From positions 1-29,617 of the IMG/VR virus record IMGVR_UViG_3300044701_001653: DNA of 29,617 nucleotides. One strand, 5' to 3'. Shown in pieces: positions 20,394 through 24,108 of the stretch (position 1 is the stretch's first letter; each line of letters opens with the position of its first letter). Under the pieces are notes generated by a model, which searched no databases, had not been told where the DNA came from, and saw only the letters and a list, made by a program, of their open reading frames with translations. A program made the translations under genes and the position numbers. The DNA is from a virus.

Positions 20394-22892
20394 ATGCACA
20401 CTAAATACTTAGACTTTGGAGTTAATGTTATTGCGGTTAATGATAAAAAACAAGCCATTTTTGCTTGGAAGGAATATCAAAGCCGAGCAATAACTAAAGA
20501 TGAGCTTGAGAAGCAAATGGCAGACCCACGAGCCAAAGGGATAGCAGTAATTTGCGGAGCAGTGAGTGGAGGTCTTGAGGTAATTGATATAGATACGAAA
20601 TATGAAACGTTCCCTCTTTGGGAACAAATTAAGAATAAAATACCGCAAGATATTTTTGCAAAGCTCCACATTGTAAATACTAAGAGCAATGGCTATCATC
20701 TGTATTATAAATGCGAAGAGATAGAATGCAATCAAAAGCTTGCACAAAGGCAGCCAACCGCAGAAGAAAAGTTGCAAAACCCACAAATCAAAACCTATTG
20801 CATCATCGAGACAAGAGGTGAGGCTGGGTATGTGGTTGCGCCACCAAGTGATGGCTACACCATCGTGCAAAAAGGTATTAATATTATTACCATCGAAGAG
20901 AGGTCGACCTTGTTTGAAGTGATGCGATCGTTTAATGAAATAATAGAAGAGCAAATCATTGAGGCTCATCAGCGACCATCTACCAAAGATTATGGTGTAT
21001 CACCATTTGAGGATTATAATAAGCGAGGGGATATTAGTGGATTATTGCAGTCGCACGGATGGACAATAGTGAAGGAGAATAGTGAGAGGGTGTATTATTT
21101 GCGCCCAGGTAGTAAGGCAGAGCATAGTGGATCGTATAATAAGTCGCTTGGCTTGTTCTCTGTCTTTTCAGTTAACACACCATTTACTCCTCAGAAGGGT
21201 TATAGACCCGCTATTGTTTACGCTATACTTGAACATAATGCAGACTACAAAAAAGCAGCCAAAGCCCTACTCGAGCAAGGTTACGGCGAAAAAAAAACCT
21301 CAGACCGACTCGAACGAACTCTTTTTAATAAAAAGCAAAATGGAGCTACAAAGGACGAATTGGTATCGCTCCTCGTCCAGTCCCATCGGAAATCTGTCAC
21401 GGATGCAACGGAAATGGTAGACAACCTTGAGCAAAGGTGGGGCGAGCAGATTTGCACTTTTTGGGATGTTTCAGAGCAAGATAGGCTCACCATCAATCGT
21501 TATAAGCTCCAAGTATTTCTCACCACATTAGGAGGCTTCAGGCTTTATTTTTATGACCAAAATAGCACGATTTATCGTTTAGTAAGGATAAAGGATGGTT
21601 TTGTAGAAGAGTCCTCCACAGAGCAAATAAAACGCTTTATAAAGGATTATATTGATAGGCTACCAGATAGTTTTGATGGAGGCATCACCCCACAAGATTT
21701 GTTAGAACATATCTATCGTGGTGCATCAGCTTTGTTCTCGGATGCTTTCTTTGAGTTTTTTGATAGGGCAGATATAAATTTTCTGCAAGACACCCAAGAC
21801 ACTTCTTACTTCCCGTTTAAGAATGGTGTGGTATGTGTGAGCAAAGGCAAGATAGAACTAAAGACGTATGGTGAACTCAACAAATTTGTTTGGAAAACAC
21901 AAATCATCGACCACCATATTTATGTTGATGATGGCTCGATTAAATTGGAAGAGATTGAGTATTATAAATTTTTGTTTTATATCAGTGGCGAAGAGGCTGA
22001 AAGACTTATGTATGCCATCACACTGATTGGTTACTTATTACATACCTATAAAGACCCCTCACGCCCATTCTCGGTCATCCTTGCTGAAGAGACTGAGAAT
22101 GAGGCTAATGGAGGAGGCACTGGTAAGGGAATTTTTGTAAAGGCTCTTGGGCATCTTAGTAACCTGGTCAGAGTAGATGGTAAGAACTTTAAGGTAGATA
22201 AGAACTTTGCCTTTCAGAGGGTTGATCTCGACACACGAATTTTAGCCATTGAGGATACACGGAGGAATGTAGATTTTGAGGGTTTTTATTCTATCATAAC
22301 AGAAGGAATCACAGTCGAGAAGAAGAATAAGGATGAGTTGTTCATTCCTTATAAGGATAGTCCAAAGGTTATGTTTACCACCAATTATACCATCCCAAAT
22401 ATGGGCAACCACGCTAAAAGAAGGCAGAAGGTGTTTGAATTTTCACCATACTTTGGAGCTGGTAAGACACCTGAGGATGTATTTGGTCATAAATTATTTG
22501 AAGATTGGGATAAGGATGAGTGGAATAGGTTCTTTAATTTGATGTTTAACTGCGTTCAAATCTACCTTGAAAGTGGGGTTTTGGCAGTCGAAAATTCGGA
22601 TAAATTGCTGAGGAAACAGGTCCGCGTCCAGTTCTCGGAAGAGTTTTTAGAGTTCTTTTTGGGGGTGGTTGAAGAGAAGGGAGTGTGGATAAGTAAGGAG
22701 CAAATGTATAATGATTTTCTAAATATGACGGGTTTTGAGAAGAAAGAATACTCCATGAAACGCTTTTCAAAGGCGATTGACGAATCGTGTACTATTTTAA
22801 AAATCGTGTACCTGAGTACACGATCCAAGGCTCATAATAACAAAAAATGTATAAAGTTCGTAGAGACAGATTTGGTAGAACAAGTATTATGA
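20394..22892 (+). CDS. Primase-polymerase / SF3 helicase fusion
   Basis: An 832-residue replication protein. The N-terminal part is an archaeo-eukaryotic-type primase-polymerase: LEVIDIDTKY (Asp65, Asp67), KSNGYHLYYKC (His102), ETRGEAGYVVAPPSDGY (139-155). The C-terminal half is an SF3/D5-like helicase: Walker A GGGTGKG at 573-579, Walker B-like RILAIEDTRRN at about 613-623, and PKVMFTTNYTIP at about 654-665 with the sensor Asn. The last 100 residues look like a winged helix (YNDFLNMTGFEKKEYSMKRFSKAI), a likely DNA-binding domain. Such proteins open the origin and synthesise primers. The 3' end contains the first iterons, and the main array follows the stop. Confidence 0.88.
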   Translation: MHTKYLDFGVNVIAVNDKKQAIFAWKEYQSRAITKDELEKQMADPRAKGIAVICGAVSGGLEVIDIDTKYETFPLWEQIKNKIPQDIFAKLHIVNTKSNGYHLYYKCEEIECNQKLAQRQPTAEEKLQNPQIKTYCIIETRGEAGYVVAPPSDGYTIVQKGINIITIEERSTLFEVMRSFNEIIEEQIIEAHQRPSTKDYGVSPFEDYNKRGDISGLLQSHGWTIVKENSERVYYLRPGSKAEHSGSYNKSLGLFSVFSVNTPFTPQKGYRPAIVYAILEHNADYKKAAKALLEQGYGEKKTSDRLERTLFNKKQNGATKDELVSLLVQSHRKSVTDATEMVDNLEQRWGEQICTFWDVSEQDRLTINRYKLQVFLTTLGGFRLYFYDQNSTIYRLVRIKDGFVEESSTEQIKRFIKDYIDRLPDSFDGGITPQDLLEHIYRGASALFSDAFFEFFDRADINFLQDTQDTSYFPFKNGVVCVSKGKIELKTYGELNKFVWKTQIIDHHIYVDDGSIKLEEIEYYKFLFYISGEEAERLMYAITLIGYLLHTYKDPSRPFSVILAEETENEANGGGTGKGIFVKALGHLSNLVRVDGKNFKVDKNFAFQRVDLDTRILAIEDTRRNVDFEGFYSIITEGITVEKKNKDELFIPYKDSPKVMFTTNYTIPNMGNHAKRRQKVFEFSPYFGAGKTPEDVFGHKLFEDWDKDEWNRFFNLMFNCVQIYLESGVLAVENSDKLLRKQVRVQFSEEFLEFFLGVVEEKGVWISKEQMYNDFLNMTGFEKKEYSMKRFSKAIDESCTILKIVYLSTRSKAHNNKKCIKFVETDLVEQVL

Positions 22893-23097
22893 TACAAAAA
22901 TCACTTTTGGGTACACGATTTTGGCCTTGGGTACACGATTGGTACACGATTAGTACACGATTAAAACGTTGATTATCAGTGCAGGTACACGATGTACACG
23001 ATTTTTCTATGTTTTTTCTATGCCCACCTTTTTTTTGGCAAAAAAATATAGGAGTGGGTGGAGTAAGGAAAATCGTGAAAATCGTGTAATCGTGTAC
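22784..23097. repeat. Iteron array GTACACGAT, candidate replication origin
   Basis: Ten perfect copies of the 9-mer GTACACGAT. Forward copies start at 22816, 22911, 22931, 22942, 22953, 22985 and 22994; reverse copies (ATCGTGTAC) start at 22784, 22803 and 23089. Imperfect reverse copies lie at 23072 and 23081. Many extend to GGTACACGATT. The copies at 22931, 22942 and 22953 are 11 bp apart, about one helical turn; 22985 and 22994 are directly adjacent. Copies at 22803 and 22816 form an inverted pair with a 4-nt centre inside the primase gene. Such iterons next to a primase-helicase gene are typical of phage and plasmid origins. Confidence 0.8.
23003..23052. other. T-rich/A-rich segment within the iteron array, unwinding element candidate
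   Basis: Immediately after the two adjacent iterons are two copies of TTTTTCTATG, then eight T (23029-23036), GGC, and seven A (23040-23046), flanked by CCT and AGG. It can form an AT hairpin and would melt easily. It lies between forward and reverse iterons, as expected of a DNA unwinding element, but this is inference. Confidence 0.45.
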
Positions 23098-23099
23098 CC

Positions 23100-23120
23100 A
23101 ACCATTTTCTTAAAATGGTT
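23100..23120. repeat. Perfect AT-rich inverted repeat at the end of the iteron array
   Basis: Arms AACCATTTT (23100-23108) and AAAATGGTT (23112-23120), nine perfect pairs, centre CTT, followed by TTGTAT. It has the same arm length and (on the other strand) the same AAG centre as the repeat at 17107-17127. Could be a terminator for the primase operon or an operator for the next gene. Confidence 0.5.
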
Positions 23121-23170
23121 TTGTATAGGATATAGACCAATATTGTTAATAGTTTTTTGTTATCTTTATA

Positions 23171-23186
23171 TTGATAGTTATCAACA
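23171..23186. promoter_or_regulatory. DnaA-box-like site with inverted half-sites, upstream of the DnaA-like gene
   Basis: TTATCAACA at 23178-23186 differs at one position from the bacterial DnaA box TTATCCACA. It overlaps an inverted pair TTGATA (23171-23176) and TATCAA (23179-23184). It lies 28 bp before the DnaA-like start; a possible -7 box TATCTTTA is at 23161-23168, so the site could sit in the 5' leader. Confidence 0.5.
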
Positions 23187-23213
23187 TTGTAAATTATTTT
23201 AAAAAGTATATAT

Positions 23214-23603
23214 ATGGTGAATTTAAGTAATGTTATGGAAGCGGTAGTTGAGGTAACTGGTGTACCATCTTATCAGGTGATTGGTAAGAGCAGAATGAAA
23301 GAGATTGCAATGGCTAGGCATTTGTTTTGCTATATGGCAAGACTCCATACCAATGCTTCACTTTTGGCTATTGGGGAGTTTTTGTCAGGAAGGGACCACG
23401 CAACGGTGATGAATTCGGTTAGGGTGTCAAATGATATGATCGACACCGATTATGGGGTTTTTGTCGAGATGGTGAACGAATGCTCTAACCATATAACAAA
23501 GAATTGGAAACAAGATTTCACTTTTAGTGTAACAATACCTTACGGGGTAGAGTTTACCAAAGTAAAATCTGCATTGGAGGTTTTTGGTGTTTCTATTCGC
23601 TAA
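23214..23603 (+). CDS. Stand-alone DnaA domain IV-like DNA-binding protein
   Basis: A 129-residue protein. Residues about 4-75 match the C-terminal DNA-binding domain of the initiator DnaA: VTGVPSYQVIGKSRMKEIAMARHLFCYMARLHTNASLLAIGEFLSGRDHATVMNSV, with the signature helix ending GRDHATV (Arg60, Asp61, His62, Thr64) that reads the DnaA box, and the basic loop GKSRMKEIAMAR. There is no AAA+ ATPase domain, so it cannot act as an initiator alone. It follows the iteron array directly, so it may bind the origin, recruit or block the host DnaA, or regulate phage promoters. The last 50 residues are unassigned. Domain recognition is strong; role is inference. Confidence 0.85.
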   Translation: MVNLSNVMEAVVEVTGVPSYQVIGKSRMKEIAMARHLFCYMARLHTNASLLAIGEFLSGRDHATVMNSVRVSNDMIDTDYGVFVEMVNECSNHITKNWKQDFTFSVTIPYGVEFTKVKSALEVFGVSIR

Positions 23604-23838
23604 CCTCTGCAATAATTGTATCAATTGCTTCGTAAATGTTTGACACTTCACCAAGATCGGCATCTGTCAATTCAATAATTAGTTCAGCAAGTTTTTGGCG
23701 CAATAATTCTGTATTCATACGAAAAGTTTTTGGTGGGCGTTTTTGGCTCAGTTCAATTCGTTCACTGAGGTTTTTGGCAGATTTTTGGCACAAGGGATTT
23801 TTGGCGGGTTTTTGTTGCATAGGGTTTTTGGCATACAT
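23593..23838 (-). CDS. Small basic/acidic protein convergent with the DnaA-like gene
   Basis: Up to 81 residues. The first 40 are basic and repetitive (AKNP, QKPAKNP, QKSAKN, QKRPPKTFR), encoded by the GCCAAAAA repeats; the last 41, starting at an internal ATG (23718), form an acidic helical segment MNTELLRQKLAELIIELTDA and onward. Either start is possible. The longer form starts inside a 38-bp palindrome that would hide its start codon in a hairpin. It overlaps the DnaA-like gene tail to tail by 11 bp. A small regulator or antagonist of its neighbour would fit but is not shown. No family recognised. Confidence 0.5.
   Translation of the reverse strand: MYAKNPMQQKPAKNPLCQKSAKNLSERIELSQKRPPKTFRMNTELLRQKLAELIIELTDADLGEVSNIYEAIDTIIAEVSE
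23692..23832. repeat. Cluster of TTTTTGG(C/T) direct repeats
   Basis: Seven copies of TTTTTGGC or TTTTTGGT within 141 bp, starting at 23692, 23727, 23740, 23771, 23782, 23798 and 23825; another is at 23580. They are irregularly spaced, all in one orientation, and code for the basic N-terminal part of the minus-strand protein, if that is translated. Confidence 0.6.
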
Positions 23839-23950: not shown

Positions 23951-24018
23951 GTGTGGTTGATAGTTAGATATCATTTTAGTATTTTAGTGGCTTAAAATGG
24001 CTTGAAATAATTACATCT

Positions 24019-24102
24019 ACCAGACGTGTTTAGCTGGTGAACATTTACCAGACGTGTTTAGCTGGTGAACATTTACCAGACGTGTTTAGCTGGTGAACAT
24101 TT
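24019..24102. repeat. Three perfect 28-bp tandem repeats
   Basis: Units at 24019-24046, 24047-24074 and 24075-24102 are identical, head to tail with no spacers. Each begins ACCAG and has CTGGT 10 nt later, so each can form a short hairpin; the second half is GAACATTT. The length is not a multiple of 3 and no credible gene crosses the array. The surrounding 23839-24189 has no gene I can support. Confidence 0.9.
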
Positions 24103-24108
24103 ATTTGC

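Follow-up and report, generated by a model that had tools for sequence, protein, structure and literature searches.

Origins of the PICI/SaPI type lie immediately 3' of rep, with an AT-rich region flanked by two sets of iterons (PMC6092414), and the C-terminal domain of their Rep reads the iterons (PMC7581432). In SCCmec, short direct repeats just past the 3' end of the Cch2 helicase gene are bound by the C-terminal domain of Cch2 on its own (PMC7581432). P4 alpha, as cited in PMC4234260, unites primase, SF3 helicase and a C-terminal winged-helix origin-binding domain acting on repeats in one protein. The origin of plasmid pRN1, 3' of its gene, is described as a stem-loop with a 21-nt stem, a 58-nt loop and no iterons, and recognition of the stem-loop has been proposed (PMC4234260).

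The DNA analysed here, an IMG/VR virus contig of 29,617 bases that we call the window, has short iterons immediately 3' of a primase-helicase gene, as in PICI- and P4-type elements. With a probability of roughly 80%, we judge from sequence comparison and from analogy with these systems that the array is the phage's replication origin and that its own primase-helicase is the initiator. A sequence-only reading had placed an origin beside this gene, and that proposal gains support from an array in every phage relative with adequate sequence. The features of the locus are as follows.

20394..22892, + strand: primase-helicase, 832 aa, proposed initiator (Pfam PF09250, E 4.5e-14; PF19263, E 1.5e-7)
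22593..22865, + strand: codons of the predicted C-terminal winged helix, ~residues 734-824, proposed iteron reader (AlphaFold model; iteron type follows the domain)
22784..22792, - strand: exact repeat copy in the gene (Glu-Ser-Cys codons)
22803..22811, - strand: iteron within the gene, whose codons Ile804-Val805-Tyr806 belong to the first predicted wing strand
22816..22824, + strand: exact repeat copy in the gene
22911..22961, + strand: left set of four direct iterons, spacing 20-11-11
22969..22978, no strand: near-palindrome TTGATTATCA between the left set and the abutting pair (consensus TTGATWATCAA)
22985..23002, + strand: abutting iteron pair, exact copies at 9-bp spacing, followed by a T-run
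22986..23088, no strand: inverted repeat that the abutting pair makes with the distal inverted copies (span 103 bp; arms 23 nt, loop 57 nt)
23003..23066, no strand: T-rich then G-rich tract between the inverted iteron sets, conserved in type, of ordinary melting ease
23069..23097, - strand: right set, inversely oriented, with an exact, a near and a partial iteron
23098..23210, no strand: flank of 80% AT, less stable than any other DNA beside the array (only 2.4% of windows less stable)
23178..23186, + strand: DnaA-box-like TTATCAACA, 37 nt ahead of the DnaA-IV start
23214..23603, + strand: DnaA domain-IV-only protein, 129 aa (PF08299, E 1.8e-18)

The ten perfect 9-mers within 314 bp that had been read from the letters are there: GTACACGAT occurs exactly ten times at 22784-23097, seven times on the + strand and three times on the -. 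Its expectation is 0.18 copies in the whole window, ten copies were reached in none of 100 shuffles, and every other 314-bp stretch of the window holds at most four copies of any single 9-mer. Two near copies had also been listed, of which one is TTACACGAT at 23081-23089 and the second, AAAATCGTG at 23069-23077, is partial only. Start-to-start distances between exact copies are 19, 13, 95, 20, 11, 11, 32, 9 and 95 bp; "several" spacings of 11 bp thus come down to two, and helical phasing describes the left direct set, where 20, 11, 11 and 32 bp are close to whole helical turns, but not the 9-bp step. Copies in opposite orientations do lie within the primase gene, which has three in all, at 22784 (-), 22803 (-) and 22816 (+). 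The neighbours were also correctly named, as a Prim-Pol and DUF5906 helicase protein on one side and a 129-aa protein with Bac_DnaA_C only on the other. A perfect match to the IHF site WATCAANNNNTTR at the palindrome was considered and dropped, as it is absent from the other lineages inspected.

The primase-helicase matches PF09250 and PF19263 above cut-off and has a GGGTGKG motif, as an SF3-type helicase with a fused primase should. Its layout is a Prim-Pol (AEP) domain, an SF3/DUF5906 core with GGGTGKG as Walker A and, from a structure model, a C-terminal winged helix. The AlphaFold model, of the C-terminal 114 residues with 22 window-family sequences, has a mean pLDDT of 81 and the order H-H-H-H-E-E. 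Behind an archaeal Orc1-DNA complex as the top Foldseek hit (E 0.044, probability 0.99) come winged helices of Fur, TFE and MarR type, no hit has an E below 0.001, and the best VIA-align Z of 7.6 is generic. The model therefore supports a winged-helix fold without implying membership of a particular family. Absence of the P4 origin-binding domain from the fold lists shown is no evidence against kinship; a PDB sequence search with the primase and its C-terminal domain returned no credible relative.

Relatives were collected from viral sequences with the primase (40 loci, and 80 overlapping ones by profile) and with the DnaA-IV protein (17 loci), and from bacterial genomes (14 loci, including Niabella and Chitinophaga chromosomes at 43-45% identity); loci are numbered with an L. 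A relative with the same primase and no array would speak against an origin, and we looked for one among all phage relatives with enough downstream sequence (~75, 60-98% identical): each has an array at the same place after the primase. L145, at 47% identity, has none. The shared layout consists of direct iterons at ~20-11-11 bp, a spacing kept in most lineages, then TTGATWATCAA and an abutting 9-bp pair with a T-run at its end, a tract rich first in T and then in G, and distal inverted copies, with an inverted-repeat span of 92-108 bp in most lineages. The repeat itself differs by lineage (GTACACGAT, GTACGCGAT, GTACGTGAT, GTACCACTT, GTACCGCTT, GTARTCGAT, GTAGTCCAT, TTGCRCGAT, TAACATCAT) and changes in concert, while spacing and palindrome are largely kept. 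In a crude count of single 9-mers, only about half of the relatives exceed every one of 60 shuffles, since repeats vary inside one array; the case for the array rests on its geometry.

In two Niabella loci (L146 and L147) and one Chitinophaga locus (L148) the module again follows the primase gene, with the whole module inverted relative to the gene, which is easier to explain by a DNA element than by an RNA structure or a promoter. TTGATWATCAA is found in most lineages with differing iterons and in both Niabella loci; Chitinophaga has another palindrome, CAATACTGTATTG. L146 is probably a prophage, since its upstream exonuclease and helicase families are those of the window.

Further afield, a nucleotide search for the array in named phages gave only a 32-nt chance-like match, and no clear iteron pair of this geometry was seen directly downstream of the distant DUF5906 helicases of Leef_1, BT-TP2 and MW202828. 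In Bacteroides phage BT-TP2 (L163, 4595-5515), the DUF5906 helicase gene and a small neighbour are followed by several repeats of the GTAACC type, in both orientations, which may form a similar origin. The region downstream in BIP-1, placed from a published coordinate in a record without gene annotation, has an inverted repeat of 92-nt span and no clear 9-bp pair. A crude scan of more distant relatives (35% identity or less; proteobacterial and others) detected no array except in a Flavobacteriaceae MAG (L156), where nine AAAACGTAC-like copies (shuffle maximum 6) lie after position 1571, preceded by a primase-helicase only 28% identical; these are a possible far relative of the array.

The T8/A7 runs described between the repeats are present, but the segment is not particularly melting-prone, at 67% AT against 63.5% for the window and with 40% of 50-bp windows less stable. 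Two iteron sets are present, as in PICI- and P4-type origins, and the AT-rich part lies outside them, at 23098-23210, where the DNA may unwind and/or the DnaA-IV gene may have its promoter. GC skew carries no information on the origin, being positive almost throughout the window, with no minimum or reversal at the array. The position of the least stable DNA would suit a function of the iterons mainly in incompatibility or copy control by handcuffing, replication truly starting at another place, such as the AT-rich flank or a separate locus. There is a precedent in P4, which has a distant second site, crr, and requires it in addition to ori. The window differs from P4 here, as no second cluster of the 9-mer was found in it, and we regard this explanation as improbable beside an origin within the array.

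The sequence-only reading had left the binder as one of two proteins, the primase-helicase or the DnaA-IV protein, and the comparison favours the C-terminal domain of the former and speaks against the latter. Among 260 pairs of loci with core identity of at least 90%, repeat similarity correlates with similarity of the C-terminal domain (rho 0.83, partial rho 0.71), and no label permutation of the full set in 500 did as well; for DnaA-IV, the partial rho over the same pairs is 0.05. Natural recombinants separate the two candidates. Where the C-terminal domain is 95-100% identical and DnaA-IV only 55-69%, the repeats are the same (L011 and the window; L026/L028; L048/L141; L091/L094/L124; L107/L109), whereas DnaA-IV identities of 86-92% with C-terminal domains at 74-79% go with different repeats (L043 and the window group; L024 and L080/L090/L108). 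L011 has a C-terminal domain of the window type (95-100% to that group) and the window's repeats, with a DnaA-IV that is 66-69% identical and changed in its recognition helix from GRDHATV to GRHHSTV. L043 is the converse, since its primase core (98%) and DnaA-IV (91%) are close to those of the window, and its C-terminal domain, at 78%, resembles the L020 type, as do its repeats (similarity 0.97 to L020 and 0.25 to the window). Repeat type thus appears to follow the C-terminal winged-helix domain and not DnaA-IV, which indicates that the tail end of the primase-helicase itself reads the repeats.

Part of this correlation may be linkage, as the domain codons adjoin the repeats. In L043, all 60 nt tested in the tract separating the sets match the window, yet the iterons on either side of it, apart from one at the junction, belong to the other type. 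Simple linkage fails to explain such co-change, because the distal inverted repeats lie beyond a tract that is the window's; L043's right set is the one direct counter to linkage.

It is accordingly unlikely, and markedly so, that the array is an origin at which DnaA-IV binds GTACACGAT and recruits the primase-helicase. In 69 of 76 loci its gene follows the array, its domain IV is intact, and by inspection TACAC is common to GTACACGAT and the DnaA box TTATACACA. However, repeats stay unchanged when DnaA-IV diverges to 55-69%, recognition helix included, they change while DnaA-IV does not, the partial correlation is near nil, and arrays occur where no DnaA-IV gene was detected beside them (within 5.0 kb in L037 and 2.3 kb in L046). 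A full DnaA initiator binds TTATNCACA boxes; of the AAA+ domain III and domain IV that make up full DnaA, only Bac_DnaA_C was found in the 129-aa protein. Exact TTATCCACA lies near the place equivalent to the DnaA-box-like sequence in L020, L021, L023 and L047, and is absent in distant relatives. DnaA-IV is probably not the repeat binder and most likely an accessory factor; our guess is that it regulates its own promoter or modulates host DnaA.

The three copies inside the primase gene differ in how they are kept. The first (22784-22792) is probably held by coding and not as a site, since it stays GTACACGAT even in GTACGCGAT phages, and the third (22816-22824) is weakly kept, reading GTACGCGAT in most close relatives. 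The second (22803-22811), in the wing codons, carries the lineage's own iteron in most lineages: the match is 9/9 for IVY/ATCGTGTAC, IAY/ATCGCGTAC, ITY/ATCACGTAC, IDY/ATCGATTAC and MDY/ATGGACTAC, and 8/9 for IML/ATCATGTTA and some others, with no match at the exact codon position in several lineages (such as L024, L029, L034, L037 and L048). Residue 805 thus changes along with the DNA site.

That the array is instead a group of operators controlling transcription by repressing the primase or DnaA-IV gene, and no origin, has very little probability: it does end ~120 nt before the DnaA-IV start and overlap the end of the primase gene, and winged-helix domains are frequent in repressors, but it sits at the primase gene's 3' end, the gap between primase stop and DnaA-IV start ranges from ~160 to 510 nt with the inverted-set span steady at ~100 bp, the module orientation is reversed in Niabella and Chitinophaga, and known elements with this layout are origins.

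Comparison of the relatives points to an origin through its position, its near-constant geometry, its lineage-specific repeats and their co-change with the winged-helix domain. For how such an origin, immediately 3' of its own initiator gene, would fire, we draw on P4 alpha, SaPI/PICI Rep, Cch2 and pRN1 ORF904. The C-terminal winged-helix domain of the primase-helicase would bind the 9-bp iterons, so that several protomers gather both at the left direct set and at the abutting pair, which faces the inverted right set ~100 bp away. From these, SF3 helicase hexamers would assemble and unwind the DNA between or beside the iteron sets, and the fused Prim-Pol domain would make the first primer.

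Two other kinds of repeat lie downstream of the array. Tandem arrays with a 28-29 bp period are found in the window at 24013-24103 and, ~1.0-1.2 kb after the primase stop, in L011, L024, L025, L083, L090 and L108, with 3 copies in the window, 11 in L011, 13 in L083, 11 in L108 and 9 in L025. Their place and period are alike and their sequence is different in each phage, several have an internal inverted repeat such as ACCAG-N10-CTGGT, and they are possibly a partition or regulatory site. The other repeat is TTTTTGG, frequently in the form GTTTTTGGC or GGGGTTTTTGGCGGG. Over the 1.5 kb following the primase, which were examined in most relatives and lie just downstream of the proposed origin, many relatives carry 5-12 copies on the + strand and hardly any on the -; the window has 10 against 0 at 23691-23835. 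These copies could be priming, recombination or mobile-repeat sites.

A likely origin and initiator can be assigned to a widespread environmental phage group, and the natural chimaeras (L043, L011 and others) amount to matched pairs of domain and site over at least seven iteron types, which would allow a winged-helix replication initiator's recognition code to be derived directly.

The locus resembles the rep-ori of PICI/SaPI in that the proposed origin lies immediately 3' of the initiator gene and two iteron sets flank a central segment; recognition of the iterons by the helicase C-terminal domain, known for PICI/SaPI, is suggested here by sequence co-variation, and the fused primase is found in PICI/SaPI sometimes. 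It differs in belonging to tailed phages with probable Bacteroidota hosts, in having a Prim-Pol/DUF5906 fusion as putative initiator, a conserved palindrome, a DnaA-IV gene next to it and a central segment that is not distinctly AT-rich, and in carrying one iteron in the initiator's own wing codons. With P4 alpha it shares primase, SF3 helicase and C-terminal winged helix (predicted here) in a single protein and repeats at the ori, here a proposed one; the P4 primase is of the bacterial (Toprim) type (PMC4234260). Cch2, in contrast, has three AAGTG iterons and a separate A-family primase-polymerase.

In domain types the protein agrees with ORF904 of pRN1, where Prim-Pol, SF3 helicase and C-terminal winged helix are also in one protein, and an inverted repeat of ~100 nt also lies 3' of the gene; recomputed, its stem, loop and span are 21, 58 and 100, compared with 23, 57 and 103 in the window. 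The pRN1 family consists of archaeal plasmids, from a different domain of life, and pRN1 has no left direct set, no TTGATWATCAA and no adjoining annotated DnaA-IV gene. The arms of the pRN stem-loops contain imperfect 9-bp tandem pairs over an inverted span of ~100 bp, weakly so in pDL10: in each of the four plasmids tested an internal offset of 9 bp scores best, with 7/9 matches in pRN1 (L159, p 0.04), 8/9 in pHEN7 (L164, p 0.003), 7/9 in pRN2 (L168, p 0.03) and 5/9 in pDL10 (L166, p 0.35), a coincidence that is suggestive only, as the plasmids are related to one another. We tentatively raise the idea, which we think more doubtful than probable, that phage iteron origins and archaeal pRN stem-loops are one device, in which two inverted abutting 9-bp pairs ~100 bp apart are read by a Prim-Pol/SF3 winged-helix protein, and in which the phage site in the reader's own wing codons ties site to reader specificity in evolution. 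If so, the pRN stem-loop would be a pair of protein-binding sites and not a hairpin, and whether pRN1-type origins are hairpins or inverted protein-binding sites is a question that can now be tested.
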